From NCBI GenBank assembly GCA_011503125.2, contig WWBZ02000010.1, positions 806,001 to 870,000 on the forward strand: a DNA stretch of 64,000 bases. Direction: 5' to 3'. This stretch comes from Botryosphaeria dothidea. Taxonomy: Eukaryota; Ascomycota; Dothideomycetes; Botryosphaeriales; Botryosphaeriaceae. The notes under the pieces were generated by a model that worked only from the letters and a program-made list of their open reading frames with translations, did not search any database and was not told where the DNA came from. Shown here piece after piece: positions 531 to 64,000 of the stretch. The position numbers were made by a program, and so were the translations under genes. Every line of letters starts with the position of its first letter. Within the stretch, counting starts at the first letter, position 1.

Positions 531-3500
531 ATGGCAGATGACTCAGGTCCTTCTACTGATGGGCCGGTGAATCTGCTCGCCCTTGGTAGGCCGGCGCACT
601 GCCCTTACTTATTGCCTCCTAACGAATCGCAACAGACGGTGGCGGTATCCGCGGTCTATCTGAATTGCTTATTCTTGATGAAGCCATGAAACGCATTCAG
701 CACGACTTAAAGCTCGATGAACTCCCTCGCCCTTGCGACTACTTTCATCTTATTGGTGGCACCAGCACCGGCGGGTAAGTTTGGCTTCTTTAAATCCTAG
801 GATTGTCATCTTTCTGCAGAAGGCTAATCGTAGTCGCCTACGTATACAGGCTCATTGCCCTACTTCTTGGCCGATTTCGCATGCCAACCGATGAAGCCCT
901 TCGCATCTACAATGAAATTGCTGGCTCGATCTTCTGCAAGGGCAATAAAAAGCGCTCATTCCAAGACGGAACTTTCAAAGCGACCACGTTGGAGAACACA
1001 GTGCGCACATTGGTCACGAAAAGGAATGTCGGAAGCTCTATGCTGGATTCAACGGGAGTGCCAGAGATGGGGAGAGCGTTTGTATGCGCGATGTCGGCAA
1101 AAAACATGGAACACCCACGGCTGTTTCGAACTTACCACGTACGGGAAAATGCGGGCGTCAATTGCGAGATCTGGGAGGCAGTCCGCGCTACCACGGCAGC
1201 ACCAACATTCTTCAAACGAGTCACCATCGGCGAGGAAGGCCAAGTCAAGGAAGAGTTCATCGACGGGGGAGTTAGGTGCAACAACCCAGCGGACGAAGTC
1301 CTGGAAGAGGCCAGAAGAGTTTTCGGTGACCAGAGGATACTCAATTGCCTTGTCAGCATCGGAACTGGCCATCCCGGCGTAATTGGCCTGTCAAAGCCTG
1401 ATGAGTTCCAGCGACTTCTCCCAACAGAGCTTATCACAGCTCTGAAACAGATCGCTACAGATTGTGAACAGAAGTCCGAAGAGTTGAGTGCACGGTTCCA
1501 GAACATTATAGGCCTGTACTTTCGTTTCAACGTTCCGCACGGCCTTGGACAGGTCTCACTCGAAGAATGGAAAAAGATGCCAGATGTCCAAGCGCATACT
1601 ATGGTATATCTAAGAAAACACGATGTTTCCAGATGCATAGACGAACTGGTCAATCTACTCAAGCATCCCCGGAAAGAAGGAGGCTATGCGTTGGGGTCTA
1701 CGCGTTAGTTGCGAACTTTGCATTGTCTTAAATCTGTACCAGGTAGCTGAATGACATACAGGTGGTATCCCTCTAAAGTCTCACCCACGTTCAACGCCTC
1801 GGGTGTCAATCAGATCCAAGCCAGGGACCAGTCCAATATTCACCGGGCGAGAGCGAATTCTGACTCGACTGGACGAATTTTTCGATGCTCGATCCGGCCA
1901 GAGCCCACAAAGAAAGGAGTTCTTATTGTATGGGATGGGCGGAGCTGGGAAGACCCAAGTCTCGTTGAAATTTGCCGAACGGAATATTCACCGGTAAGCC
2001 CCTATCGGCAAGCTTCTTACTACGGCGCTGATTAGTGCAGCTTTAAATATGTTTTCTGGATCGATGGCAGCAGCATAGCTACTATAGAGCAGTGCTTCAA
2101 GGACATCGCGGCTAAGAACTGCCCGGATGTTTCCGATGCAGAAGCATCTGTTCAGTCGGCTTTGTGGTGGCTGGGCAGTCTGACCGAAGAATGGCTGTTG
2201 CTGTTCGACAACGTTGAGAGCTTCAAGGCGGCCTCAGAGGCCCTCCCAGAGAACAAGGGCAACATCATTTACACGAGTAGGAATCCCGAAGGATGCCTTT
2301 CATTGCCCAAAGGGGCATACTACGAAGTCAGTGAGATGGAGGAAGAGGAGTCTCTTCAACTCCTTGCCCGTGCCAGGGGTTTGTCAGAAACACGCCATCA
2401 AGAGGAGGCGTATGCCAAGAGCATAGTGGTGGAACTGGGCCACCTGCCGCTAGCCATCGACCAAGCCGGCGCTTATATGGCCACTCGTTCTTGCGGTGCG
2501 CAGGATTATCTCCGACGCTTTAACCGGAAGCGGGCGGAGCTGATGCAAAACCAGTCGTATAAAAGAGCATCGTCTCACGACCAAGCTGTATACGCTACTT
2601 GGGACGTATCTTACACCGCCCTAGAGCAGGCTAGAGAGAATGAGACCGATGTAGAGCAGAGAAAAGCGGCACAAGCGGCAGTACATATCCAAGGTGTATT
2701 TGCTATGCTGCATAGGGAAGACATTATGAAGGAGATTTTTCGGCGTGCCGCAGAATCGGGAAAATTTCAGCAAGAGCCAAGCGAAACTATCGAACAAAAA
2801 CAAGCCCAACATTACGCCGAGCTCGCTGCTATGCTTCTACCACTTAACGAGGAAAGTATCTGGGATCCTGAGCTATTCGAACGCGGGGTCCGAGAATTGC
2901 TCAAGCTATCGTTAGTGAGACAATATGACCTTGGGACAGCCTTCTATATGCATCCCCTAGTGCACTTCTGGGCCCAGGACCGCTTAGCGCCTCTCTACCG
3001 CGAATATTATCAGAGGAGCGCAAGAGAAGTTCTATCCGCCTCTGTAGTATGGAACTTTACCAGCGACGATTATTCTTTTCGACGGCGGCTCCTGCCACAC
3101 GTTGTAAAATGTCAGCAGACAAAGGGTTTATGCCCAAAGACGCTACTAGATGCAAACACTGCCGCAGACTTTGCTCTAGTGTTTTCCGAAGCTGGGTCTT
3201 GGGACGACTCAGAAAAGCTTGAGGTGCAAGTAATGGAGACGAGAAAGAGGGTGCTTGGGCAGGAGCATCCTTCCACGCTCACCAGCATGGCCAACCTCGC
3301 GTCGACGTACCGGAACCAGGGACGGTGGAAGGAGGCCGAGGAGCTTGACGTGCAGGTAATGGAGACGAGAAAGAGGATGCTCGGGCAGGAGCATCCAGAT
3401 ACGCTAACCAGCATGGCCAACCTCGCGTTAACGTACCGGAACCAGGGACGGTGGAAGGAGGCCGAGGGGCTTTTTATACAAGTGGTAGAGACGATGAATA

Positions 3501-6500
3501 GGGTAATCGGGCAGGAGCATCCTTCTACGCTTACCAGCATAGCCAACCTCGCGTCGACGTACCGGAACCAGGGACGGTGGAAGGAGGCCGAGGAGCTTGA
3601 CGTGCAGGTAATGGAGACGAGAAAGAGGATGCTCGGGCAGGAGCATCCAGATACACTTACTAGCATGGCCAACCTCGCGTCGACGTACCGGAACCAGGGA
3701 CGGTGGAAAGAGGCCGAGGAGCTTGACGTGCAGGTAATGGAGACGAGAAAGAGGGTGATCGGGCAGGAGCATCCAGGCACGCTTACTAGCATGGCCAACC
3801 TCGCGTCAACGTACCGGAACCAGGGACGGTGGAAGGAGGCCGAGGGGCTTTTTATACAAGTGGTAGAGACGATGAATAGGGTGATCGGGCAGGAGCATCC
3901 AGATACGCTTACCAGCATAGCCAACCTCGCGTCGACGTACCGGAACCAGGGACGGTGGAAGGAGGCCGAGGAGCTTGACGTGCAGGTAATGGAGACGAGA
4001 AAGAGGATGCTCGGGCAGGAGCATCCAGATACACTTACTAGCATGGCCAACCTCGCGTCGACGTACCGGAACCAGGGGCGGTGGGAGGAGGCCGAGGAGC
4101 TTGACGTGCAGGTAATGGAGACGATGAATAGGGTGATCGGGCAGGAGCATCCTTCTACGCTTACCAGCATGGCCAACCTCGCGTCGACGTACCTGAACCA
4201 GGGACGGTGGAAGGAGGCCGAGGAGCTTGACGTGCAGGTAATAGAGACGAGAAAGAGGATGCTCGGGCAGGAGCATCCAGATACACTTACTAGCATGGCC
4301 AACCTCGCGTCGACGTACCGGAACCAGGGACGGTGGGAGGAGGCCGAGGAGCTTGACGTGCAGGTAATGGAGACGATGAATAGGGTGATCGGGCAGGAGC
4401 ATCCTTCTACGCTTACCAGCATGGCCAACCTCGCGTCGACGTACCTGAACCAGGGACGGTGGAAGGAGGCCGAGGAGCTTGACGTGCAGGTAATGGAGAC
4501 GAGAAAGAGGGTGATCGGGCAGGAGCATCCAGATACACTTACTAGCATGGCCAACCTCGCGTCGACGTACCGGAACCAGGGGCGGTGGGAGGAGGCCGAG
4601 GAGCTTGACGTGCAGGTAATGGAGACGAGAAAGAGGGTGATCGGGCAGGAGCATCCAGATACACTTACTAGCATGGCCAACCTCGCGTCGACGTACCGGA
4701 ACCAGGGGCGGTGGGAGGAGGCCGAGGAGCTTGACGTGCAGGTAATGGAGACGAGAAAGAGGGTGATCGGGCAGGAGCATCCAGGCACGCTTACCAGCAT
4801 GGCCAACCTCGCGTCGACGTACCTGAACCAGGGACGATGGAAGGAGGCCAAGGAGCTAACGGTATCTCCTAAATACCAAATTCTTGCAGCCCCTATGAGC
4901 TCCAGTGCAAGCACAGCAGAGCCTGTTCAAGCTGAGAGTATCTTTTCTTCTGTTGTTCAATCTACGGATCCAACGACTGTCGAAATTCAAGACACTGGGC
5001 TGGCAAACGAAACAGCAGAGAAGATGACCGATGACGTGGACTCTATTTACAGCGTGGAATCCGACATGGAGGCGGATTCAGGCTACATAAACGGAGTCGC
5101 GCAAATCATTTTCCAACAGCTACAAGGCAATTTCTTGGACATCACATCATTCAAACCGGTGCTGATTGTTGCGGAGAGGGCTCTCGAGGCTTTTACATCC
5201 AAACTTGGCCATGAGTTGGACTGCAAACAGGCGCAGGAAGCAAGGGTATTTATAAAAAAACATCGAAAGTAAGCATAATCGTAATGATTACATAACTGTT
5301 GCTAGAAGCTGATACGCCCAAATCTAGGCAAATCAAGGATTCTTTGGAGAGAATCGGGTACCGCCACCTGGAGAGCATTCCGCAAGACAACACGACTGAC
5401 CGCGAACCGGACGAAGTGAGCCGCCGTGATGTCTTGGGTTGGCTGAAAGGCACGAACCCAGGTGACGAGCACCCAAACAAGGACCCGAAAGACAAGCACC
5501 CAGACAACGACCCAGAAGATGACCCGGAGGACAAGCACCTAGACAACGACTCAGAAGATGACCCCGACTTCGTAGAGCAAGACATTGAAAAGGATGGGGA
5601 AGAGGATGGCCAACACTATGAGCAAGTTCGCCTTGAATATCGAGAACTCATAGATTCGGGAGCCTTCCGTTGGCTTATTATGCGCTTGAAAAGAGAGATT
5701 TTCATGACAGCACCAACAACGGACCATGCATCTAGCATCGCGGAGGACATTCTTCGGAAGCTTGTCTCCAAAGGCAAAGTGAGCAGGAAGAATCCCGTCG
5801 AGTCTCATAGAGCAGTTTTCACTGTCGATTGGAACCCCTTGGCCTTCTTGGAGGAGCAAGACTATGAAGAAGAATGGAGTGAAGCATTAGCCGGAGCTAT
5901 CACATTGACTGGATGTGCAAGCTTTGCGCAGGCTTTGACTTGTGCTGAATACATGCGTCAAACTTGGCCTTGTTCGGGGCTCTCCACTCTTCACGCATTT
6001 CAGCACATTGTCAAGCGAAGTCAGGATGGCCATAAAACACGTGAGTATTCATTTTCTGCTATCGTCCAAGCGAAAGTTTTGCTAATTGGAGCATTCAGAA
6101 GAAGATGCAGATAAGCCAGAACTGTCAGCATTCATGCATGAGGGAAAGGTAAAAGTGGATATGAAAGGCGTGGCTTATACTATAGCAGAGATTGCAGAGC
6201 AGCTTGCCTGGCTTGGGTCTGCCCTGCGCTCATCACCATATGAAAATGGTGTTGCTGTCTGTGTTCCACAAATCGACATCGATTACGCCACATCCTCAGA
6301 GGACACTTGTTGCAAGACGGAAATACACTGCACGCTGAAATTTCACATCGAGCCACAAGCTGAGGGTCCTCTCGACCAGAAATGTGTGTGCTGGCACAAG
6401 CTGTTCAGGAATCCTGTCATTGTTCGGGGGTTTCCGGTTCCACGTCAAGTCTGTCGCACTCTCGGTCTTGATATACCCCTGAACATCATGGCACGACTGG

Positions 6501-8305
6501 CTCAGGCCCGGCGCGTTACGAAGTTCGACAACAAACTCTATGCGAAGGGATTTTCTACAATGCTATTGGCAACGAAGTACAACAAGGACGAAGGACTCCT
6601 CTTTTGGCACTTATTCTATAATGAGGACGGAAGCCACATTTCATATCTCGACGTCCGCGTCAAGGCGACTGAAAAGATCGTAGCGGACAGGATAAGCTTT
6701 CAGGAACTGGAAAATTCACGGCACATCCTTGGGTGGTGTAGCACAGTCCAAAGCCGTGCAGGTAAGATACCAACCAAGAAGTTTTGATAGGATCTGGAGT
6801 AACGAACATGTCTTGCAGGCGCTCACGATTCTGAGTACCACATTCGTTCATCAGGACGACGAGAGCCCCATGCGGGCTGCAGAGTTGAAAAATTCAGCAT
6901 TACCGGCGGCAAGATCGTCAACTTCGGTTTGTCGGGGGCCATTGCTGACAAAGATGTTCCGATTCACCTCAACCGCAACGGGTCTTACTTGGAAATGATC
7001 AAAGCTATCTTTTCTAAGTTCGTCATACTCTACGATGTGGACGAGAAACGAGCATGGCTTGTTAACGGTGCGAGCGCTTTGCTCCATCTTGTGCGATCAT
7101 CTCTTGAGGACGATCGACAGAGCGTAATTGGTTCTAAGCTTCTCTTCAAGCCCGAGGAACTGCAAAGAGCGAAAACTGAGTACACTCCTGAGTCTGCTGT
7201 TGATGTCCTCACCAATGAAGAGAACATGGTGCTGGAGATATTTCCGCACAAACCAGAATTCTCAGAGGAGTTCACTTCTGGTGCTTTTGACAGGCCTGAT
7301 ACAGTAAGGAAGAGGAAGAGAACGTGTGTGTTATTGCAAGATCGGGTCGAACAGGTATCTCATTTTCTCGAACAGATACTTATTTACCAGACAGACAAGG
7401 CCGCAAATCCAGGAGTCGAGTTCAAGGGCAGACCCAGGAATTACCTTGAAGGATTCGAGTTCAACGCTGTGGCCAAGGGAAGCGACCCTATCGTCCTCAA
7501 GATCACAGCCCTTCGGTCCACCGGGAAATGCTGGATAGATTTTGCTCGAGCCATTAATGCTGTGGCTTTGTTTGGACGTGGATTTGGAGATATCATTCGC
7601 CCTAAAGAAAACGGCGAAACATGCCATTCTTGGATCAGTATGCCAAAGGGAAAAGACTATCTTGCCATCTGTGTCCCGGATCTGCGACGGATTATCGATG
7701 ATCATGGAGACATGGAGGGGACGTCAGTGCGCATAGTCGATGACATCTATTGGCACAACCCTGACAAGATCTTCGAAAGCTGTCTCTGCAAAGGGAAGTC
7801 AGTCAAGAACACCTGTGCTCGAGCACAAGTACTGCTTCCATCCAAGTTTGACCCTCGGCGGCTTACGAACCGTGTGGTCCGGCCCAACTCATGGGAAGAT
7901 AGCTTCCAGGGTGCCATCATTTTCGGTCATAACCGAAGATTTCCATTGAAGTGGCCAGACGAACCAGACAGAGATCCGGAGGAAGCACAGTCCGAAGAGG
8001 CCGACGAAGAGCATCTGAGGAGCGGAATCAAGAATTTGTCGAGCACTGGGAGTTCTGATCCCCGAGAACGTGGCGTATCGACAAGCTCAGTCCCGCAAGA
8101 TCAGCCTTCAACGGATCACTCTGGTGAATTGACTAGCAATACGACCATCCAGTCACCATCTCGCCAAGAAGGCTCTGTGAGGAGTGGTATAGCAGAAATC
8201 ATGGCATCAGATTCTGGGGTACAACGACCCGTTGGACGCGGTCCAGGGCGGCGAAAAATCTTGAAGGATTACCTTAGGGGGCTTTTCAGAACAACTGAAA
8301 AGTAA
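531..8305 (+). CDS. Patatin / NB-ARC / TPR NLR-like protein with large C-terminal module (8 exons)
   Basis: Proposed exons are 531-585, 636-774, 850-1703, 1762-1993, 2041-5268, 5328-6040, 6099-6761 and 6819-8305. All seven junctions keep frame and total 7371 nt (2456 aa). Residues about 12-300 are a patatin phospholipase: DGGGIRGL oxyanion loop at 19-26, GTSTG nucleophile elbow with Ser62, and DGG with Asp203, so the Ser-Asp dyad is complete. NB-ARC follows: P-loop GMGGAGKT 407-414, Walker B LLLFDN about 479-484, TSRN about 505-508, GHLPLA about 560 and an MHD-like MHPLVH about 730-735. Thirteen 42-residue TPRs occupy 818-1363, then an acidic Asp/Pro/Lys-rich stretch near 1548-1588 and a C-terminal module. 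Fungal NLRs of this type are thought to sense non-self through the repeats and trigger cell death; activity here is inferred. The frame around 1000-1700 fits only if the 1704 donor (GTTAGT) is used. A two-gene model splitting at the TAA at 5270 is possible, but the 5269 GTAAGC donor and 5327 acceptor join HRK to QIKDS in frame. Confidence 0.85.
3212..4849 (+). repeat. Thirteen tandem 126-bp repeats encoding TPR (kinesin-light-chain type)
   Basis: The exact 126-bp period encodes 42-residue units with the core GQEHP-TLTSMANLASTY--QGRW-EA. Units fall into a few types (LDVQVMETRKR, LFIQVVETMNR, LDVQVMETMNR), and several successive units form near-identical pairs (units 7-8 and 9-10). Because 126 is divisible by three, the opposite strand is also open for about 600 codons; that is a shadow. 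The array keeps abundant CpA and TpG, so RIP has not touched it. Confidence 0.95.
4850..8305 (+). other. Uncharacterised C-terminal module of the NLR (part of the same gene)
   Basis: This segment (about residues 1364-2456, containing introns 5269-5327, 6041-6098 and 6762-6818) begins with a Ser/Asp-rich linker (SIYSVESDMEADSGY), then a helical stretch ending KHRKQIKDS. It continues through motifs such as AITLTGCASFAQALTC, EQLAWLGSALRSSP, CWHKLFRNPVIVRGFPVP, KGFSTML, GWCSTV, KFVILYDVDEKRAWLVNG, DFARAINAVALFGRGFGD, KGKDYLAICVPDL and VDDIYWHNPDK. I recall similar blocks in other large fungal proteins carrying ankyrin or TPR repeats, but no function. It ends in a low-complexity Ser/Thr/Glu tail with a basic cluster before the stop. 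Confidence 0.6.
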
Positions 8306-9999: not shown

Positions 10000-12900
10000 T
10001 TATCCTTGTAGTTGTCCGGGTCCTGGTGGTCCTGGTGGTCCTGATGGTCCTCCTGGTTCCTCGTCCTAGTTGCCTTCCTAGATTAGTTCCCTTGCCAGGC
10101 TGAATTGCTTAAGCAGCCCTAGGCGCAAGAACCAGTCTATTGCTGCTTTGGCCCCCTTCTTTGTTGAGAGGAGGGAGTAGTAGTCCGTGGTCCCTGCCCT
10201 TTGGAGCATCTGTGCCCTGCCCTGTTGGAAGTGGGGGTAGAAGAGGAGGATATGCTTTGGGGTTTGTCTATGCCAGCCGCATGGGCAGGCAGAGCTAGGG
10301 TGCCCTGGCACCTTGCGCCTAGAAAGGAAGTCCTCTAGTCTAATATGCTCTGTACGCAGTAGAGTGGTGAGTGTGCTCTGTGGCTTGGACAGTTCGCTGT
10401 GGATTTTTCTGATTTTCGGGTTCCACTGTGTGGTTTGGGCTACTAGCTTGCCTTGCCTTCCCTGGCTACTGAACTTTATCTACCTCTCCTTCCATTTGTT
10501 CCTATATACTATACGTAGTCTCGTTCGCTCCGGGAGACTCTGGTAGGTAGGAAGGCAGCAATTGAGGAGTGAGTTTGCCTTTTTTCTAAGCAGGGTTCTT
10601 CTGGCTGGGCCGGCGGCGCCTCTGGTACTCAGAGTAGCCCAGGCTATCTGTTTAATATTATGGCAAGTTTCCTCTACCACTGCGGTAACTGGGCCATCCC
10701 TAGCCCTAATAGCCTGGGCTAGTGCTAGTTCGTCCAGGTGTAGTAAAAGTGGGGGAATCCCCGTCTCATGCTCTAAGGTTTGTGTGCTGGTTAACTTGTA
10801 CGCCCCTGAGATAGTGCGCAGGCACTGGTTTTGGATCTTCTATAGTGGCTAGATGGCTGTTTTCCTCCACCCTGGGGTTCCCTCTAGGGCATGCTATACT
10901 CCACAGCCATAGGTGAGGACTGGCCTTACCACGGCCGTATAGATATGGCGGGCTTTAGTAAATGAGGCTCCCCAGGTAGACGCTGCGAGTCTAGAGAGGG
11001 ATGTACACTATCTGATTGCTTTAGCTCCTGTTTCCCTAATATAGGGTCCCCATCTCAGCTTATTGTCGACGTGGACTCCTAGAATCTTAATTGTAGGCTC
11101 TGGGTGTCCAGTAAATCCAGGGATGCGGATTTCTGCTGCCATATTGAATCTCCTTAGTTTTCTTGTGAAGTGGATAAGGTGGTACTTATCAGGCGAGAAC
11201 GCTGACCTGTGGGTAGCTGCCCAGTGCTCGCAGACTTGGTGTGCTCCCTCTAGTATCCTACAGTTTTGTTCTATAGATCTACTAAAGGTAAGGATATTAG
11301 TATTATCGACAAATCTAAGAGGGAAAGTATTGCCCCTGCGTAGTTGTGTGAGTAGATTAGAGGTAAAGAATAAGTAGAGGATCGGAGATAGTGAAGATCC
11401 TTGGGGAATCCCAATTGAGGTCTGAATTGATGGGCTGGTAAAGTCCCCAAAGGATAACTGAGTAGTGCGGTCCTGTAGAAAGGAGTAAGTGAATCTTTCT
11501 ACCCATTCCGAGAGCCTTGCCATCTTTATAATATGGAGAAGCCTCCTATGAGATACATGGTCGTATACTGCTGAGATGTCCAGGCTAAGGACTGAAGCCA
11601 TCAGTCCAGGATCTTGTGCCTAGATAGTATAAATCTGTTCTGTGACCAGGTCGAGAGCTGCTACTGCGGACCTGTTTCTCCTAGCTCCTATCTATATATT
11701 AGGGAGTAGGCCGTACGCTTTAGTAGCCTGGAAGATTCTATCTGCTATAATCCTCTTAAGTAGCTTCCCTAGCGTGTTAAGTAGGGCAATCGGCCTAAAT
11801 AATTTGGCTTTAGTGTAGTCATCCCTCTGTAGTTTCCTTAGGACTACGGTAATAGAGCTTTTAAACTGCCTAGAATAGTATGCAAGTGCGAGGCATCCCT
11901 AGAAGAGCCTGGTGAGTGGTCCGCTTAGTGTCTGAGCGCACTGCTTTAGGAACCTATTAATAATCTTATCTAGGTCTGGTGCCTTATATGGGGGGAGCTT
12001 CTTGATGGTGTGGAGGACCTGCTCTTCAGTAAGGTCTTGGGGAATCTCTACTGGCACTGGGTATGTATACCTATCCAGATCTGAGAGGTCGGTGGCCCTA
12101 GGAGGGGGGAAGAACTGGTTGGTAAGGATTTCTGCCTTGGCCGGATTATCGTAGCGCAGTTGTCCATCTGCTCCCTGGAGGGGTAGGAACTGAGGTGGGG
12201 CTGGAGGCTCTAGTGCCCTTGTTCTTGCCTACTTTGAGAGCTTCCAGAGTGCAGATGGGTCTAAGGTAATCTTAGCTACTGTTCTGCGCCATGCTTTTAT
12301 TCTATCCCTTCTAATCTGCCTCTTCTTGCTATTAGTAATAGTTTAGTATACTACCTAGTCCTCCTCCCTCCCTGTGGCCGTCCATTTCCTTCTAGCTGCT
12401 CTCGCCTGGTGCACTAGGTCCGAACACTCCTTTGTCTATTGTATGGAGGCCTAGGGCGAGGGTCTCGCCACTGGGATAGTTTCCTGGATTGTTCTTTGGA
12501 TGACCTCCTGGAGTAGTTCCGTAAAGTAGTCTAGGTCTGCTTTCGTATTAAGAGGGGCTGCTCTAAGGTATTCGAGCTTTGTTTGGAGCACCTGATTGGT
12601 TCTATTCTAGTCTGCTTTTTTCCACTGGGGCCTTGGAGGACGTGGTTCTATAGGGGTAGGGGAGATATTAAGCATTGTAAGGATAGGTAGGTGGTCTAAG
12701 GAGGATTCGAGCTCCTGACTAACTCTATAGCTAAGGATCCTCTCCTCTAGCCACCGTGTAGTAAAGATAAGGTCTAGGGTACTCTCGCTACTACCCTCTC
12801 TCCTAGTAATAGTACCTCTTAGAAGGGCTAGGTTAAGGCTAGCTGTCGTAGCTATTTTAATAAGGTCGTCTACAAGAGTATGGTGTATAGGGGAGGTAAT

Positions 12901-15924: not shown

Positions 15925-18226
15925 TTAGCGAGTTGCAGCCATTGCTTTATCCGACACGTATAAAGAAGTAGGTAATGATAGTATAGAAGATATAGGTAGC
16001 CCTCTAAGTCTCGCCGCATCCTCGCTTCTCCCGAGCCGGTCGTAGTACCCCGCGAGGTTGCCCATTAATGTAAGTGTATTAGGGTGCTCTTCCCCTAGCT
16101 TCTCCTTCATTATTTCCCAGCACTCCTCCCCGATCCTCGCCGCATCCCCGCTTCTCCCGAGCCGGTCGTAGTACCCCGCGAGGTTGCTCATCGATATAAG
16201 CGTATTAGGGTGCTCTTCCCCTAGCTTCTTCTTCCCCATTTCCTAGCACTCCTCCTCGATCCTCGCCGTATTCTCGCTTCTCCCGAGCCGGTCGTAGTAT
16301 CCCGCGAGGCTGCTTATCGATATAAGCGTATTAGGGTGCTCTTCCCCTAGCTTCTTCTTCCTTATTTCCTAATAGTCCTATCTAATTTCTACTGCTCTAA
16401 CTGTTTCTCCGTTTTCTTAAAAAGCCGTCGCAAATTTTGCTAGGGGGTAAATTACTTCTATATCCTCCACGGCAAGCTTTAGCACTTTATTATAGTTCTC
16501 TTCTAAACATATATTAATATATAGTATAAGATATCGGCGATAATCGTAGTCTTCTTTATCGAACCTCTATCGGATACTTGCACTAAGCGTTGAAAAGGCG
16601 GCACGTATAGCGGTCTAACGAAAAGAATAGCTAATGCGATCTTTCGCCCATATTTATACGACGGGATGGACGGATATATCGTAGTATAAGCGGTTAATAG
16701 AGATAATAGAATATGATGCTAGAAGCGAGAAAGCCTCTCTAGTAGGCTCGCTGTCCCAGCCTACTGGCTCTAGATATAATAAGCTATACCGAGGAATAGA
16801 AGACTAAGCGAGCTCGATTAGCCGCATCTCCTCCCGGCCTTCGATAGTATCGCGGCTCGTCCCTTGACTATTGATCTAGGTATTCTTAAGAATAGTTTCG
16901 GAGATTCTTTGGTAATAGAGAAATGCGATAAATTAAAGAAGTTCGAGGGCATTAGCTGCCACGGAAGTCTCTAACGATTCGATGTATTAGGATAAAAGTT
17001 CTAGAGTTAGGTAGGTGTTATAGCGATACTATACATGCCCCTAACCTTTTAGGTAGTTTAGTAGTTTTTACCGCTGTTTAGCAAGCTTTGTCGGATATTT
17101 ATCCATCCTGCATAGACTCTTTTTTAGATATATAGCGGCATGGACGATGGGAAGAGCAAGATAGCCGATAGCTATAACAACGTCGAGAGCTTGTCGTCGA
17201 ATATCCTTAGGGGCAGAATCCTAAAGAAGGAGCATCTTAAGCAATAGATCGTATGCTTCTTCGGCCTCTATGCCTCCGAGCTCCTAGTTACTAATCGTCG
17301 AATAATTACGGCATAAAGGATTACGAGACGTGATTATTATAAGCCCCCGGTTGCTCGTAGGAAAGTAGGCAGATAGATCGAAGGTGGGATCGTCCGCATT
17401 GTCGAAAATTAAGAGCTAGGGCGTTTCTAAATTCGATAGCTAGGAGATAGTAGCACGGTAGTCGTCGATTTGCCCTTAGTATTTAGCTACCTTCCGGAGC
17501 GCGGCCTTAATAGAAGCTTCTAAGCTAGAATTAATCTAGAAGACTCCCTAGAACCTATTAAATATAAGCATTATCCGTAATTAAGGGTGAGGGCATAGCT
17601 TACTTCTTACGGCATTTATAGGTAAATTAAAGATATAGTAAAGTCTTCCCTAAGCCGGCGAGTCTAAATAAGATAAATACCTTAAATTCGTTTAAACCGG
17701 AAGCGAGGTATTTGCTTTTTATACTCGCGTATATTTCGCCGCGTCTAGTAAAGAAAGGAGTGGGTAGATACGGAATAGTCTAGACTTTATTTTAGTAGGC
17801 TTGAGAACTAGAAGCGATTAGAAGAAATCTACCTTAACTCTTACCCCTAATAAATTAAAGGCTTACTTACTCGGACGGTGCACTATATTAGCCGCCTTTT
17901 TAATCCTATCGATGTTCTAAGACGGGATAATAGAAAGGAGCTCTTTTATATACGTAGTAGCGGTTATAGCAGCGTATAGCTGCCACCGCTTATTCTTATA
18001 GGAGTCGGCGTAGTCGTAGATACCGCGGATAACGAGACACGGATACTCGTCTATAAGGCCTACCGCTTCTATTTCCACGTATAGTATCCCTAAATCTTCT
18101 CTTAGTCTCTCTCTCTTAGCGCCATCCTTAATAATAATATTTCTATATCTAATAGTGCCGTAGAATATTTTCGGTGCGTAACTTTTTCGTGGTCCGCCGC
18201 GGTCGATAAGTCTACTCTTATTATAG

Positions 18227-53927: not shown

Positions 53928-56359
53928 GTACTACTAATTAAGAACGGCCTTAAGCTTAGTAGCGTTATCGCTACGAACGATAGCGAGCTTTACTCCTCCT
54001 TAAAGTTCTATCTTTACGCGCTATTCGTTTAAGACGCGTAGTACTTCCTCTCGCCTCTTAAGCGCGATAGTCTATACCTTTCTTAAGTAATTATCGACGA
54101 TCTTAAGAAAGTAGTAGTAGCTAGCCTAAGATTCTAGTAGCGGGCCGTAAACGTCGATTAAAATAAGTAATAGGCTTACGGCTTTCCTATTACTTACGTA
54201 GTACTCTTTCTTATTTTTTATTTTAGTAAGGATATATACTTTATACACGTAGTCTTCCTCCGCTATAGTAGGAATCGGCTCTACGAGAATTATTACCTTA
54301 TATAGCTCTACTAGCTTTTACTTACTAAGATATCTAAATCTTCTATACTATAGCCTAAATAGCTTAATCTTTTAGTTAGTTACTATTACCTCTAAAGTAG
54401 GGTCTTATTCTTACCTAGTAGTTTAGATTTCGTAGGCTATTAGTAACTCGGTCTACGAATTTACCTTACTATAGGCTAGGGCTAGCGTAGCTAGTTAAAC
54501 CTATTATTACGCTATCTCGAGAGCCGATAGCGCAAAGTATTTACTTATCGGTTTAACCTTATCTATAAAATAAACTCCCCTATTCTCTTAAGCGATAAGA
54601 ATATTCTTATCGTACTAATCTCTAAGATAGAGAGAACGATTATTAAAAGAACCCTTTAGTCCGTTCTTATATATCTATTAGCTAGAGAGAAGATTTATAT
54701 CTAGTTTTAGAACGTAAAGAATAGAGGATAAAGAAATCGAATTACCGTGCCTATCTACTAATATAACTAAGCCGACGTAGTCGGCGTATAATACTCCCCT
54801 ACTAACTTTAATCGTACGCCTTATAATACGGGTTAGAGGTCTACTAAAAAGTTAGCGTTAGTTAGTTATATATATAGATATAGCGGAATCTATAATCTAG
54901 ATATTTTTAGGAAGCTTACTAGTAATAGATTTTAATAGTATAGTAATCTTCTTAACGTTCTCTTCTTTACTACTAATTTCTTAGCTTTTAGTAGCTTTAT
55001 TATCGTAGATAGGCTTATTCTCGACGGCTTAGAAGGCCTTTAGTTAGTTAATTTAATCTTATAGAGTCTTTAGCTATATAGTAAGATAAGATAGCTAGCT
55101 CCTCCGCGCTACGCGCTTCTTCTATATAAAACTACGCGCTTCTAAAAGATATTTATAGTCGCGAACGGGGTAGTTTTAGTTATAGAGGTAGTACCCGCTT
55201 TATCCGTCTCTCGTTAGGCTACGGCGGCGAGGTCCGGCGGAGGTTCTATTTTAGTTCTACTATCTTACTACGAGCGTAGTAGAGGTTCTATTTTAACGTA
55301 ATTCCTCCTTCTATAGTAGTATAATACCGTTCTTAACTAAGATATCCTTTTAGACGTTAAGACTTATCTAGATCGACTAGTACGAGTCCGGAAGCGCTTG
55401 CAATAGACGCTAGAAGCGTATCTTCTCTAAAATAATATTCTTTATATTCTTATTAAAGATAGCGAGCTTCTTTCCTAGCGTTTAAAGCTAGGTCTAGGCG
55501 GTCTTAATAGTAGTTTTAGGCTCTATTTAGTAATTAACGTAGTTTAGTAGGTATTACCTACCGATATCTTAGAGCTTCTCTAAGTACTTATTCTTTAGAG
55601 ATTTCTATACGAGCTTAGCTAAGTTAAGGTCTCGTACTCTCTCGGCATCGTCTTCGTTAATATAAATCCTTATCTAATACTAGGCCCTCGAGTCGTCCTT
55701 AGTACTTCTAAATCCTATACTAAACTAACTATCCGATATAGAAGGATTAGTAGAGTTAGTAATAGTATAGTATAGACCTTTATCTTTTAGCTATACCTTT
55801 ATTAACGGGAACTAGACGTCCTTATTTTATCTTAAAAGAATTAGAACGGGCCGACGCTTCGTAAAAGGGTCGGAAGAGTCTATATTAAGAGAAAGTAAGA
55901 AAATAAGAATATAATTATAGTAGAAAGAGTAAACTACGGTTAATCGTATCTAATATATTACGTATAAAAGATCGTATTAAATAGTAGTTATTTAAAGTAC
56001 GAAGGGGGGTTACTTAAAAGAAGCTACGTAGTCGAACGATACGTAGTAGAGCGGTTATCGGTAGTAAGACGTCTACTTCTAGCGGGGCAATAATAAACGT
56101 CGAGTACTAATTCTTCTAGCGTAAACCTAGGCCTAAGAATATAGCTTCCTCGAGTACGCGAACTAATCGCGATACGTAGTCTAGTCGCGCTACTAATTTC
56201 CTTAACCGATAAGAACCGTATTTAGCTACCGGTACTAGATTATATATAGACCCGACTATAGAGGCAACACGTCTTTTCGTAGACGTTTAAGGGATCCTAT
56301 ACCTAGTAGAAATACTTAAAAAGCTTCTCTATCGGGTATACGAACCCGAGCTTATAACC

Positions 56360-56558
56360 TATTACGATAGTAGCGGTATAGAGATAGCTTATAGAAAGAT
56401 ATTTTTTCTTCTATCTACCGTAACTATACTAGAAGATATACGTATAGATTACGTACTATACTAGTTCTATATAGAAAGGCCTAGTAGCCCTTAACTAGTC
56501 TACTTATCTAATATTACCGGATAACTAAACTACGGCTAGTACGGCTATTTTCTTAATA
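56360..56558 (-). repeat. Copia 5' LTR
   Basis: 199 bp, paired with 45,011-45,209 and flanked by the TSD GAACG on its right. Confidence 0.9.
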
Positions 56559-58121
56559 GAACGGATATTTATAGACTTAATCTCTTAACGACGATATTCG
56601 GCCTTACGAAGAGTTTTAAGTAGCTATTCGAGAGAGATAAAGATAAGAATAGCTACTAAGAGAGCTAAGCTAATAGAAATACTATTCTATATCTTATTAA
56701 TCTTCTCTTCTTTAGTAGGATTAGTAAGAGACTAAAGTATATATAGGCGGGCGTAGTAGAAGTCTACCGTCTCTTTCTCGCTTTATCTAGTAAGAATAAG
56801 ATTATTAGTAGCTTTTTTCCTTGCGATATCTATTCTATATATCTTTCCTAGCTTTTCTAAAAAATCTAGGGCTATCTAGTAGCTACTAATATACGGGCGT
56901 ATTATAGTAGTAATTAAATTAGTAAGGCGAGAGTAGATATAGCGAATTATTAGCTTCTAATTTTCTTTAAAAAAGTCCTCTTTAACTTTAAGCTTAAAGA
57001 CTATATTATTCTTAAAGTTAACGAAAGTATAGATATTAATAGAGATAAGCTTATTAATATCTTCTATAAGTATTTTACGTAAGCCCTAATAAGAGAGGGT
57101 TCGCTATAAGATAATAGTTCTCTTTCTTAGTTAACGTTTCTAGTTAAGATTACGAATATTAGTACTAAAGAGAATATCTTCGTAATAGTTAGCGATATTC
57201 TTAGTTAGAAGATTATTTTCTTAGATAAGCCGGCTAATCTTATCGTTACTTTCCTTAATAACTCTATTAGATCTAGCGATTATCTTCTTATAGATCTATT
57301 TAAGTTTCTTATACTTATTCTAAAGAGAGACGTAGGCTATATACTCTTTACTAGTAGCTATTTAAGTAACTTAGAGAACGTAATAGAACTTAGTACGCTA
57401 GTTTACTATTACTATAGTATACTAGTTATAGAAGATATATTCGTTAGGCTAGTAAATAGAGTCGAGTCCGTAGTTACTTAGTATTCCGGGGTTAATAGTA
57501 AGATTAAGATCCGTAGCTAATAAATATATAAGTTCTTTAGGTTCTAGGTTTTTACGTAAGGTAGTACGACGTAAGATAGGATCGGTAGCTTAACTTTACT
57601 AGTCTAAGATATTAAAAAAGCCCTAAAATAGGATAGTACTACTTATAAACTCGTTAAGGTTCTAGCTAGGTTTTCTAACTATATTACTAAATAATTCTTC
57701 TTTATTATCGCTTAGGTAAATAGAGGTAGTACTAGCGATACTACTAGTACGGCTACGACTATAGCTTACGGGGAATAGGCTTTATTACGCTATAATCTTC
57801 GCTAATTATTCTAGTTTTTTAGAGTAGTTTAACTCGTATTACGGGTAAAAACTCTAAAGAGATTAGTACGAGGTTAACGAGAATCTTTATATCTTATTTA
57901 AGAAGATAGATTTTCTATAATTATACTATTATTTCTCTAATAGTATAGATTTCTTTAATATTTCTAGGTTACTTATCGTAGAGTATCGATATTATTAAGT
58001 TCTAGTTATAGATTATTAGTATTATCGGGTTCTAGTTATAGGTTATCGAGTTTAGATTCTAGTTAATAGTACGGGTATTAGGTTATCGAGTTTAGGTTTC
58101 TTATTAGTAGTATATAGATTA

Positions 58122-58353
58122 TATAAGATAGTAAAGCCGAAATAATAGTATTACTTTTAACTAAAAATCTATATATAAGAAGAAAGAAAAGAGAGTTTAG
58201 AAAGAGAGGGCGAAGAGTAAATATATCTAGTCGCTTAGCGCTAGGCCTATACTCTAGTATCTAACTAAGTTATTCTTAGTAAAGCTAGGGCCTCTAGTTA
58301 CTATTAAGTATCTATTTAGTTATCTAAGATAGTAGCGCTTAAGAAGCCTAATA
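58122..58353 (-). repeat. Gypsy-2 5' LTR
   Basis: 232 bp, paired with 37,308-37,539, followed by TSD TCGAT at 58,354-58,358 and then LINE-2 RNase H-side sequence. Confidence 0.9.
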
Positions 58354-61300
58354 TCGATAAAGTACTACTACGCCTTCTTAGCGCCGTATTTATAGATAAG
58401 TTTCGTCTTTTTATATTCTAGGCGTCTATAATACTTAGTAAAATCTCTATAGCTAGTTTCTTCGGCTAGTAGCTAGTATAGTATCTATTTTAATAGCGCT
58501 AGCTCGGGGTTTCTTCTTCTTCTTATCTTAAGGCCTAGATATTAGTAGACTAGTATTTAGTACTTCTTCTACTAAGCCTCGTAGACTCGTAATCTCTTCT
58601 CCCTATTTCTCCGCCTTATCTAAAATATTATTATCGGCCTCTATTTATCGTTCTATAGACCGATAGCTACCTTCGCTAGCTAATTAGCCTCTTCGTTTTC
58701 TATAATTTCTATATAACTAGGATACTATCTAGTCTCTACTAGGACTAGAAGCTTCCGTCTCGTACTCTTTAGCCTCTTAAATTAGCTCTACGAGCTAGCC
58801 GGAGTATATTTCTCTATACTCTATATAACTAAGATATTATCTATATATAGCGTAACTTTCGTAGCCTATAGGGCTTCTATATTAGCGGCCGTCTATATAA
58901 GTTCTTCTACTACTTCTTAGATTTCCGCGTTAAATACCTCCGCCTTATATAGGCTTCCGCTTTAGATATAGATCTACGCGCCGTATCTATAGGCAACGAA
59001 GGCCTAGACGGTCTTCGAGTTTATACTCGAGCCGTTCGAATAGATATATACCGTCTTCGGTAGGTCTTATTTTAGTAATTTTATAAATTTCTTTAGGCGG
59101 GGTAGTATACTAATAGGATATACTTCTACGGTAATCTAGTCTTTCTAGAATAGTATAGATTCTAAGTTTAAATCTTAGACCGCTTACCTACTCGTAGTAT
59201 ATATATTCTACGTTAAAAGTATACGTACCCGCGTTCTTTCTAGCGGTAATAAGGAGGAAAATCTATAGATAGTTAGGGTAGGCTATAAGTAGTATATACG
59301 TCCTACTATAAAAGTATACGTATTCGCGTTCTCTCTAGCGGTAATAAGAGGGAGAAGAGCTAGCTAGGCGCTTCTAAAAATAAATTTTAAGAGCGCTTTA
59401 CTAGCGCTTATAAATAGATAAGCCGGGACTTTTTACGGCTTAGTCTTAAGATTTATAGTTACCTCTCTCTATAGTTTTTTCCTCTTAGCTACGCTTTCTA
59501 CTTTAGATACCGCTACTAGTATATAGAAAAACCTATACTAAATAGAGTATCTATAGATACTACTATTATAAATAGAGAAAATTTTTATTTAGGCTATCTT
59601 AAGAAAGTAGCTACGGTTTCTTCTTTTATATACTCTTATAGATAGCTATAGCTATATAGACTCTTCGAAGAGCTAAATTAGCTTAATTAAATTTATCTAT
59701 CTATCTATCTATAAATTTCTTTACTTCTCTCTCTTTTCTCTACGTTATTCTTTAGAGAGTATTAGTATAGCTCGGCTATAGAAGCTAGGGTCTTTCGTAT
59801 TTCTCTTTAAGCTACGCTATTCTCTATAGCCTTATAATCTTTAGCTTTAAATTAAGAATCTTTAGAGCTAAACCCTAGCGTCCTTATATAATCGTTATCC
59901 GCTTAACGAGTAAATATATCTTATCTAATAGCCGTAAGTAAAGAGATACTCTTCTCTAGATCTACTATAGAAGTATACTTACTAGTAGAATCTTTATTTC
60001 GCGGTAGAGTACCGAGATTAGAGTCGTTCTCTATACGGGTATTATAGTCTAGACTACTATTCGTAGCGCCCTATCTATAGTTACTATATAGAACGAATAT
60101 CTCGGTACTACCGTTCTAGTAGTATAAGATATTAGCTTTATTATTTCTTTATATTAGATCTCTACGTCGTACGTAGCGACTAAGAGTATATATACGTACG
60201 CGGCCTTTATCGCTACCGCTAGAGGTATTTTTTTTATAACCCTATTTAGGCGTTAGAGATAGGCCGCTACTCTACTATCTTTAGAACTCTATACTTCGAC
60301 GTAATACTTAAAGTTAAGCTTTTAGTTAAAGTAAATTTCTAGCTATCTAACTAGCTTTTCTTTAAAGCGGATTACTATCTCTCTTACTTAGATTAGTTTT
60401 AATAGTTTTAGAAATCTACTTCTAAAGAAGTAGATAAGCTTATACTTATTTAGCGCGAAGGCGATTACGTTCTCCTTCTTCTAGCGTAACGCGTCCTCTA
60501 GATCGGCTATAAGAGTCTTAGTTATTTCTTTTATATTTTTTCTAGAGCGTAAAAAGGCGATATCGTCGGTATATACGAACTTCGTTCGTACGTTCTTCCG
60601 CTTTAGTAGCGGCGAGAGATAGAGTATATAGAGAATTAGCGAGGCCGGAGATCTCTACGGGACCCCGTACTATAGCTCCTTCTTATCTATAATAATTTCT
60701 TTTATACGGACCCTAGCTTTACGTCTAGTAATAAATTCTTACGTCTATTTTACGACCCGCTCTAGCTAGCCTTATTTCTATAACCGCTTTATTAATTAGT
60801 TAGATAGTACTACGTCGAAGGCGCTCTATACGTCTATTATTAGTATTAAGGCCTCTTAGTACTTTAGTAGCGCTTTTTTAATATTATATATAGCGTAGGC
60901 GGTAAGATCTAGTACGAAGCGCTATAGTAGCGCTTTAAAGTATTATAGGCTAAGTAGATTTAGCTTTACCGCTAGGTAAGATATTCTTCTTACTACGAGC
61001 CGTTCTAGTCTCTTACTAAGATATAAAAGTAGCGTAATTAGTCGATAAATACGAATACTCGAGAGATTTCTTTCTATTTTATAGATAATAGTAACGTCTA
61101 CGGTCTAAAAGATCTTCGAGTAGTATTCTTATTATAGATAGCCTTAGTATAATATTACTACTATTTTTCCGATCTCCGGCTAGGCGGTTTAGAGTAGTCT
61201 AACTATTATTCTATTCGTTCTAGACGTAGTATTACTAGTCTTAATATAGTATACTTCCGCTTCCGCTAGAGTAACCTCTTTCTTCTATAAGATCTTCTCT

Positions 61301-62326
61301 AGTTTTATCTTTAGTAGATACTATAGATCCGGAATATTCTAGTCTATATTAAAGTAGTAGAAAATCTTTTCTTAAAGAAGTTCGATCTTTTCTCTTAGAT
61401 TTATAATTATTCTATTCTCGTTAACTAGCGGTAGAAATCTAAAGCGGTTAATAGCTTTATACTAGGCCGTTATCCGAAAGAGATTCTAGTTATCTTTCGC
61501 GTTAATAATTCGGTCCTTCTAATACCGCCGTTTTATTCTTCTAACTACGTTACGTAGTACTTCTTCTATCTTCTATCGCTCCTCCGAAAAGAATTCTTTA
61601 AGGCGGCGTACCGCTACTTTATAGTTCTCGTTCTATTACGTAGCGGGCTTATTCTTTATCGCGGCTACCGTATCTACTACGTCTATAGCCTTCTATAGTA
61701 GTCTAACTAACGCGCGTATTATTCGCTCTAGACCTTTTCTTATACCTATATTAGTCGTAATCGTATCTATATTTCTCTTTACGGCCTACTAAAAATCTAT
61801 AAGCCGGTCCTCGTATATAGTAAGCTTTTAAGTTCTTATCTAGGCCTAAGTATAGAAGAGAATATTAGTCTATAGCGTGTAATAATCTAATTTCGTACTA
61901 AGTTTCTCTAGTATCTAAGTCTCTATTCTTAAGATATTCGTAAATACTAGGTCTATAGTATTATCTTATTTATACGTTAGGCTCTCTAGATTTATATTAA
62001 TAAGCCTCTAGTTTTCGGTCTATTCCGCTACCTAGATACTAGGGTCTCTATACTAGCTATACCCCGGCTACTAGGTCTAGTATACCGCGTTAAAATCGCC
62101 TACTACTACTACGTTTTAAAGTAGCTTCTATATCTCTAGCTTCGCTAGTAGAGCGTCTATTCTAGAAGGTTTATAGATATTAGCTATTATTATACTATTT
62201 ACTTCTACTACGTAAATATTAGACGTATTAAAGAGTCGTATTTAGAAAGACTATAGGCCCGGCGACTTTCTAACGTACGTTAGTACTCTTAGAAGCGTCG
62301 ACTAGTCGTCTTATAGAGTAAAGATA
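58354..62326 (-). mobile_element. LINE-2, a second non-LTR family with RNase H, RIP-saturated
   Basis: Minus strand from the right: endonuclease (VVVVGDFNAVY near 62,090-62,117), reverse transcriptase (FVYTDDIAFLR near 60,551-60,585), then an RNase H domain near 58,400-59,080 (VYIYSNGSSINSKTV, YKAEVFNAEI, LYIDNILVI). SINE-2 lies between reverse transcriptase and RNase H. The 3' end seems to continue left of Gypsy-2 (37,307 to about 37,200). The 5' end is cut off by Gypsy-1 copy 2. An RNase H domain distinguishes it from LINE-1, where I saw none. It is not functional. Confidence 0.85.
59096..59709 (+). mobile_element. SINE-2 (614 bp), 14-bp TSD TATAAATTTCTTTA, with internal duplication
   Basis: The exact TSD lies at 59,082-59,095 and 59,710-59,723. 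It is the same family as SINE-1: start GGCGGGGTAGTATACT, B-box-like AAATCTTAGACC region, end AATTTATCTATCTATC. It is about 100 bp longer than SINE-1 because a segment around GTACCCGCGTTCTTTCTAGC (59,225-59,265) occurs again, slightly diverged, at 59,308-59,345. Confidence 0.82.
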
Positions 62327-64000
62327 TATTAGGCCTACGTCTAAGTAAGGGACGAACCGCCGAGTAGCTATCTAGCGGTCTTAACGGAAATTATCTAACT
62401 TCCGCTAAGACTATTAGTTAGTAACCTAGTATATAGTCTTTCTTTCTTCTTTTTCTCTTTCTTTTCTCTTTAGTTTACTTTTCTAAGTAGTCTAATATAA
62501 AATACCTCTTAAGACTAATATAAAAGTAAACTCTCTTTTACTACGTTCGAAGTTACGAAGCTTAGGCCGTTCTTCGCCTAAATCTTAGAATACTATCTAG
62601 ACTATAACTAGCTTAAGCGGACTACTCCGGATCTACTACGCGGTATTAGAGCCGCGCCGGTACCCTCGAGAATAAGTATAACGACTCTACTACGCTCTAA
62701 TCTATAGAAAACGCCTCTACTTCTATAGAATTAACTATAATCTTAGGAGATTTTAACTAACCCGAACTCTCTACTATCTAAGATAAAGAGAAAGAACGAG
62801 CTACTTATAGCTCTTCTTAAGTCTCTTTTAGCGTAGCCGAACTCTCTCTAATCCCCCGCCTAAGAACTTTACCTATCGACCTCCGTAGGAGCCTAGCCTA
62901 CTATATAACTAATTCTATATATCTCTCTTACTACGACTTCTCTAATATTAAAGCTTTCTATAATAACTTCTAGAACTCTACCGAGCTCCGAAATTTAAAA
63001 AATCTTATCTACGACTAGATTAAGATAGATAGTAGATACGAACGAAACTAACGGGAACTAGAAGAGGCTATTAGTAATTAGAACGTCCGCTAATATCTAA
63101 ACTACGCCTTAGCTCTTCGTAAGTACCGTAAGTATAAGAAGAAAAATAGTAAGCTTCGAGAACGCCTTAGCTAGCGTAAACGAGAGTTATAAGAGCTTTA
63201 GCTTTAACTATAAAAAAACCCGAGAACCCGCTCTTCTCTAAGGCCTACCTAAAGGAACTTCTTAAACTTTAAGAAAGAATAAGACCTCCGTTCTTAGTAT
63301 ACGGTACGCGTAGATAGATCGAGTAGCTAAGTCTTCTTAGAAGTCTTTACGGTCCGTATAGTAGCTTCTAGTAACTACCGGCCTCGTAGCCGTAATTCTA
63401 AGAATAAGTTTAACGGAATATCTAAGAAGTATACGGCCTAGAGGTACGAGGTTAACTAAAAACTTAAAGACGACGCCCCGCTCTACGATACTAATAAGAG
63501 AGCTATCTTATACGCTCTCTCGTAACTAGACTCCTCGCTCTTCGACTCTCTACGCGCCTAGTTTACTTAGTTAAACTACGCTACTATACTTAGCGTCTTT
63601 TTTAAGAAAGTTAAGTTCTTCGCCGGTATTAATAATATAAAGGAATAGATTCTTTAGAAACTACGCTCTATTAAATAAAATCTTAGTAAAAACGTTACGT
63701 AGTACTTTAACCGCCTCTCTTAACTATAGACTCGAGCTAGTACCCCGTTAGACGAGCGTTTACGTTAACTATTAGTTATCTACTACTCTAGCCTTACTTT
63801 AGATATAAGAAGCTAATACTACTTTAATCCCCGCTAAGTACTTAAGAATCTTTAATAAAGCAAAGAGGCGTAGCTAGCTATCGATAGCTACTATTCCCGC
63901 CGTAAGAGAATAGCTAGAGCCGTAAAACCCCGAGAGGCTACTACTAGTACTACTACTACTAAAACTAAGAAAACTACTACTATCTCTAAATAAAAGTAGA
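62327..64000 (+). mobile_element. Gypsy-1 copy 2 (plus strand, runs off the window): 5' LTR and gag remnant
   Basis: The 194-bp LTR at 62,327-62,520 is the reverse complement of the copy 1 LTRs and is preceded by AGATA. The following gag region is readable with stops (for example KLRERLS, DERLR, VTQYF-like near 63,680). It contains, at about 62,890-62,960, the uninterrupted version of the site where LINE-1 copy C sits in copy 1. RIP is saturating. The sequence ends at the equivalent of about 28,618 in copy 1. Confidence 0.9.

Follow-up and report, generated by a model that had tools for sequence, protein, structure and literature searches.

The window, a stretch of 64,000 nucleotides from Botryosphaeria dothidea (contig C6, positions 806001–870000, in a genome of 51.7 Mb assembled in 78 contigs), carries near its start one long predicted gene on the plus strand (531–8305). 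Its eight exons (531–585, 636–774, 850–1703, 1762–1993, 2041–5268, 5328–6040, 6099–6761 and 6819–8305) encode 2456 residues plus a stop, and an independent rebuild of the spliced message returned the same length with the sole stop at its end; all seven introns are GT-AG. In order, the protein comprises a Patatin domain, an NB-ARC domain, 13 near-identical TPR units and ~1090 further residues. An earlier note on this DNA, made from the sequence alone, had described seven introns joining in frame and a single polypeptide in which patatin, NB-ARC and TPR parts are followed by about 1100 extra residues, and both descriptions hold for the reading frame. The fifth exon alone runs in frame from within the NB-ARC domain, across the TPR array, to the first 80 residues of the extra part. 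Judged from sequence, the gene structure and the relatives of the gene are fungal.

The first three parts are readily recognized, a Pfam scan of the first 904 residues returning Patatin (E 4.9e-23), NB-ARC (E 7.8e-13) and TPR_10 (E 4.3e-29). The patatin lipase domain (PF01734, residues 16–215; 576–1300, exons 1–3) contains DGGGIRG at residues 19–25 and both motifs of the Ser-Asp dyad, GxSxG as GTSTG (residues 60–64, at about 758–772) and DGG (residues 203–205, at about 1262–1270). The NB-ARC switch domain (PF00931, residues 403–601; 1920–2563), split by the intron at 1994–2040, contains the P-loop GMGGAGKT (residues 407–414; 1932–1955) and LLLFDN (residues 479–484), so that lipase dyad and P-loop are indeed intact, as previously noted. 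The TPR array (3203–4855) consists of 13 units of 42 residues (126 bp) and the start of a 14th, Tandem Repeats Finder (TRF) counting 13.0 copies of this period, with matches of 89% at the DNA level. PMC4986451 puts the threshold for such highly conserved repeats at 85% identity between protein units. Protein searches scored only candidates sharing words with the query and lying within length limits; for residues 1–820 these limits were about 830–2630 residues, and the scoring of 7996 candidates yielded 335 relatives, 120 of them listed. The top-scoring one (P0085) aligns end to end with residues 1–820 at 49% identity, with small gaps by the third exon junction and none at the other three, and itself matched four PADLOC phospholipase effector models. 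The listed relatives include the Cryphonectria vegetative incompatibility protein 2 (P0168), and PMC4986451 and PMC12258605 bear out patatin-NB-ARC-TPR as an established layout of fungal NOD-like receptors (NLRs; NOD, nucleotide-binding oligomerization domain), patatin NLRs nearly always having NB-ARC and NB-ARC being mostly paired with TPR. The cell-death role of patatin NLRs was inferred from the Cryphonectria gene (PMC4986451). In several of the ten relatives whose C-termini were printed, the final TPR unit is distinct from the others; the protein studied here lacks it, and the extra part appears to have taken the place of the usual receptor end. A BLAST comparison of this part with the best 120 of the 335 patatin relatives gave zero matches, and the combination is therefore new within what was searched.

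Most of the extra part is a conserved fungal module (residues about 1424–2345; 5030–7969, exons 5–8), which takes up ~920 of the ~1090 residues and includes short acidic repeats (5456–5564; TRF periods 27 and 39). It is followed by a C-terminal tail (residues 2346–2456; 7970–8302) modelled with low confidence (predicted local distance difference test, pLDDT, mostly below 50), probably disordered and ending in a short helix. Residues 1422–2456 as query retrieved 66 proteins from 7996 scored candidates, and a query with the module region, using the full-length protein as length guide, retrieved 19, 18 of them new, for a total of 84. These homologues share 28–49% identity with the module over 30–98% of the query, which rules out an orphan domain, and 82 of them (all but P0064 and P0065) carry the precomputed Pfam label PF28131. 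For the module studied here this name is the label of its relatives and not a direct model score: a scan of residues 1361–2456 against a local Pfam copy that did not include the PF28131 model found no family at E≤1, and 8 of 24 homologues scanned against Pfam likewise gave no family whatever. Across the 46 homologues with full coverage, 91 columns are at least 90% conserved, and 81 of these are kept here. Conserved tryptophans, histidines and cysteines are retained as well, among them a CxC pair at 2283/2285. The earlier note had called the extension the least explained part of the window; by homology it is instead a widespread module, and one that comes after the repeats at two further loci of NLR type in the same genome.

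The company kept by the module in other proteins is varied. Nearly half of the homologues (41/84) carry PNP_UDP (PF01048), C-terminal of the module wherever it was placed (P0005, P0008, P0021, P0069, P0076), with a second stretch in P0021. On the N-terminal side Pfam located such partners as caspase (P0008), protein kinase (P0037, P0068), HET (P0083, P0084) and LRR (P0076) domains, as well as Zn-cluster, Rsc7/Swp82-like and DUF6590 domains. Six of the 84 database proteins combine the module with NACHT (P0034, P0053, P0071, P0077, P0079, P0082), in five of which (P0034, P0053, P0071, P0079, P0082) Pfam placed NACHT at the N-terminal side, with or without ankyrin; patatin or NB-ARC appears in the precomputed Pfam column of none. 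PADLOC found no match in the homologue P0011 or in the C-terminal half of the studied protein. A short motif, [ST]DS[GA]Y, recurs ahead of the module: of the 46 homologues (out of 84) whose alignment reaches the module start, 24 have it within the preceding 200 residues, and eight of the 46 have under about 100 residues there. It occurs 34 times in the 113,542 residues of the 84 module proteins vs 0 times in the 140,427 residues of the 120 listed patatin relatives, and 31 of the 34 matches also fit DSGxx[ST], a pattern that we take to recall a phosphodegron of the beta-TrCP type. A literature search on DSGYAS as a degron gave nothing relevant.

The host genome itself offers the strongest support for a real fusion, in the form of its own NLR-module loci. 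A six-frame search with the extra part gave 16 matches, grouped as seven loci including the present gene; of the six others five were retrieved (one of them, L037, being listed as frames only), and a weak one at C9:198094 was not. Locus L034 (C9:142500–152400) holds an intact HET-NACHT-ankyrin-module gene (779–8247 of that locus) of 2405 residues with near-identical ankyrin repeats, in which a single stop-to-stop frame of 1493 codons spans HET and NACHT, 12 stretches that Pfam recognizes as ankyrin, and the beginning of the module. Its module is 33% identical to the one studied here, and its three module introns correspond to introns 5–7 of the present gene in residue and phase (2, 1, 1). At locus L035, on contig C1, a PNP-like domain is followed by NACHT, ankyrin and module in successive frames on one strand; its first module intron, read by eye, is of phase 2 and in the same place as intron 5. 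The first domain of L035 is 47% identical to the N-terminus of P0021 and 36% to the PNP_UDP region of that protein, and Pfam recognized nothing in this PNP-like part. Both L034, as DSGYAS, and L035 have the DSGxxS-like motif that is absent from the linker of the studied protein. At L036 on contig C2 (1999–5172, minus strand) a diverged module is joined to an unexpected partner, a receiver domain of a two-component response regulator, and L038 (C1:341000–350900; 4720–8038 of that locus) is a degraded copy in which an AAA ATPase frame lies upstream of a module with large middle parts missing.

These loci also bear on where TPR array and module meet. The earlier note suspected a junction at 5268–5328 and named two genes meeting near 5272 as the case that would overturn a single polypeptide. 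Intron 5 (5269–5327, phase 2) is in fact the module's own conserved intron, shared with L034, and a gene boundary at 5272–5300 is ruled out because exon 5 already encodes 80 module residues before it (1424–1503), which align with the module start in homologues. The true junction is the linker inside exon 5 (residues 1366–1421; 4856–5023). Its codon-usage score, trained on the exons of this gene itself, is 0.117 in frame, vs 0.143 ± 0.065 for those exons, −0.183 ± 0.112 for out-of-frame windows (at most 0.101) and −0.269 ± 0.208 for intergenic windows (at most 0.069). The GC content of third codon positions (GC3) is 0.34 in the linker, 0.77 in the TPR array, 0.54 in patatin-NB-ARC and 0.52 in the module, and local alignments of some homologues extend into the linker, e.g., that of P0008 from residue 1368.

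An approximate history of the module was obtained from a tree that combined 83 of the 84 database modules with those of the studied protein, L034 and L035 (86 in all), built by a quick method with support from the Shimodaira–Hasegawa-like approximate likelihood-ratio test (SH-aLRT) only. The studied module groups with P0001, P0004 and P0009; L035 belongs to the same clade of 24 rows but stands outside these four, and L034 falls in the other half of the tree. Nine NLR-attached modules require six label changes, at least five of them forced by well-supported branches; attachment to NLRs was therefore gained or lost repeatedly and was not a single inherited fusion. Shuffled labels gave as low a count in one of 500 trials, so that the NLR label is also clustered. 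Structure models were made for the homologue P0011 (47 sequences; mean pLDDT 71.8, predicted template modelling score, pTM, 0.67, much of the core at 80–97) and for the C-terminal half of the studied protein (61 sequences; pLDDT 76.6, pTM 0.77, 226 of 494 residues at 90 or above). Neither had a convincing fold match among solved structures, and among PDB sequences no match was found to the studied module or to the module part of the A1 profile; judging from the models, this is compatible with a new fold, without demonstrating one.

In NLRs generally, sensing falls to the repeats, assembly to the nucleotide-binding domain and the action itself to the N-terminal effector. The evidence above argues that the gene is probably a single one for a four-part fungal NLR, with a patatin effector, an NB-ARC switch, a TPR sensor and the PF28131 module as second input or switch domain. 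This role is suggested by where the module is found: three NLR-type loci whose effectors differ have it at their sensor end, and elsewhere, in proteins in which no NOD was seen, it stands beside effector-type domains. It is most likely an input or switch domain and not an effector partner. Of the two roles that the earlier note had offered for the extension, a regulatory one thus seems the better guess; that of effector partner fits poorly, since patatin, HET, caspase, kinase and PNP_UDP are separate effector-type domains around the module. Module and TPR array would together hold NB-ARC off until a cue of non-self or damage binds, whereupon NB-ARC would assemble and bring patatin domains together, and their phospholipase activity could then damage membranes, killing the cell or the fusion compartment. 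Where no NOD is seen (caspase-module-PNP, kinase-module, HET-module) the module might gate effectors itself, because it adjoins effector-type domains there. A broader proposal, which we advance with some reserve, would make the PF28131 module a fourth standard component, not described before, of fungal NLRs and of the cell-death proteins related to them. It would act as a general gate with a fold of its own, not yet solved, and would be exchanged among effectors (caspase, kinase, HET, PNP_UDP and patatin) whether or not a NOD is present, in many cases following a conserved T-D-S-G-Y-A-S hinge that is maybe a phospho-controlled degron; the studied protein would then stack this gate on a complete patatin NLR.

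Several observations weigh against the proposed four-part receptor. A fusion of patatin-NB-ARC-TPR with the module appears to rest on a single genome, and we know of no binding or catalytic activity for the module. Positive or diversifying selection on the TPR units is unsupported, mean pairwise dN among units 2–13 being 0.071 vs a dS of 0.195 (non-synonymous and synonymous divergence, respectively; 66 pairs). At the linker, M1422 (5024) has an A at −3, so that an internal start is conceivable, and three homologues of the module (P0028, P0041, P0043) begin at about this residue. The low GC3 of the linker was counted on the same side, although it does not clearly favour either one gene or two. 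The points about the linker could be accommodated by a pair of genes sharing one reading frame, in which a patatin-NB-ARC-TPR gene has lost its natural end and reads into a separate module gene that starts at M1422 or M1379 from its own promoter in the array or linker. The missing last TPR unit and the unusual GC3 of the linker would fit this account, and 56 open codons in a row are not very improbable by base composition (P 0.066). Yet the linker is coding-like in frame, many homologues extend upstream of M1422 by some residues or by entire domains, local alignments reach the linker in some, two further loci of NLR type in the genome have the module behind their repeats, one of them in an uninterrupted frame, and just 168 bp would have to hold a terminator, a promoter and a 5′ untranslated region. 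Two genes are on balance quite unlikely, and a gene boundary inside 4856–5023 is possible but unlikely.

Other alternatives accept the fusion and differ over its meaning. Were the module an integrated decoy, serving the NLR as bait by copying a cellular protein that pathogens or rival mycelia target, it would share its C-terminal sensor position with non-canonical domains of Sordariales NLRs for which a sensor or decoy role has been discussed (PMC12258605), its repeated joining to and parting from NLRs would be expected, and the nuclear-type domains of some homologues (Zn-cluster, Rsc7/Swp82-like) would be in keeping with such an origin. This is nonetheless unlikely: PNP_UDP in about half of the homologues and effector-type domains in others make the module look like a standing part of the machinery, not a captured bystander, and no target is known. 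A second effector or enzyme fused to the NLR could explain why the module is large and largely well ordered in models, with conserved W, H and C residues; it is very unlikely, given that no family or convincing fold match was found for it and that, in many homologues and in the genome's own NLR loci, activities of effector type are already provided by the domains next to it. Least probable of all is a chance fusion without function, decaying beside repeat-rich DNA. It gains something from AT-rich blocks that start about 14 kb downstream, from a stop-riddled NB-ARC relic at 16294–17559 and from the absence of the combination from any other species among the relatives listed, but it is hard to square with 2456 codons free of internal stops, intact motifs and the retention of most conserved module columns.

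The remainder of the window shows what surrounds the gene. The relic just mentioned lies on the minus strand, resembles NB-ARC/TPR, is 30% identical to the gene's NB-ARC region and contains 20 in-frame stops (14 TAG, 6 TAA), as in a decayed second NLR; at 11008–12228, also on the minus strand, translated frames resemble by eye a reverse transcriptase of the long interspersed nuclear element (LINE) type. GC content is 0.43–0.54 in the first 22 kb, falls to 0.30–0.40 at 22000–48000 and 54000–64000, and returns to 0.50–0.53 in an island at 48–54 kb; the low-GC blocks might be those expected of mutated fungal repeats. Elsewhere on the same contig (C6:613818–616289) a PNP_UDP match adjoins an NB-ARC match, perhaps another NLR.

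Fungal NLRs are described as three-part proteins. In its first three parts the present one is of a known kind, and its module belongs to a family that Pfam already labels; the combination of patatin, NB-ARC, TPR and module is new among the relatives listed, and fusions of the module with NLRs recur. No mention of PF28131, and none of a recurrent NLR-module fusion, was found in the literature searched, most subscription journals lying outside its scope. About half of the C-terminal regions of fungal NLRs were unannotated in a 2014 survey (PMC4986451). A module of ~920 residues, present at three NLR-type loci that differ in effector, switch and repeats, and also in proteins of cell-death type in which no NOD is seen, is a candidate common control part, and its recurrence suggests a shared component of fungal self-defence.

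Among known systems the closest are NLRs of the type of Cryphonectria parasitica vegetative incompatibility protein 2 (P0168, G8H3Q2), which likewise run from patatin through NB-ARC to TPR; the 120 listed patatin relatives are 846–1529 residues long and have no module, as against the 2456 residues found here. Proteins annotated as ‘Pfs domain protein’ or ‘purine and uridine phosphorylase’ have the PF28131 module in common with it and often a C-terminal PNP_UDP domain, which the studied protein does not have. In the NACHT-ankyrin-module proteins (P0079 of Fusarium oligoseptatum, P0082 of Neopestalotiopsis clavispora, and L034) the module follows repeats as it does here, but the switch is NACHT instead of NB-ARC, the repeats are ankyrin instead of TPR, and SesA (P0079) or HET (L034) stands in front; behind its module P0079 also shows a weak match to a hydrolase (E 0.0013). 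Fungal NLRs with a C-terminal SPRY, zinc finger or PKinase domain, as described in PMC12258605, in whose passages covered here the module is not named, likewise have an extra domain past effector, switch and repeats; compared with these, the extra part of the protein studied here is about 920 residues long, of no recognized fold and common to several classes of NLR.

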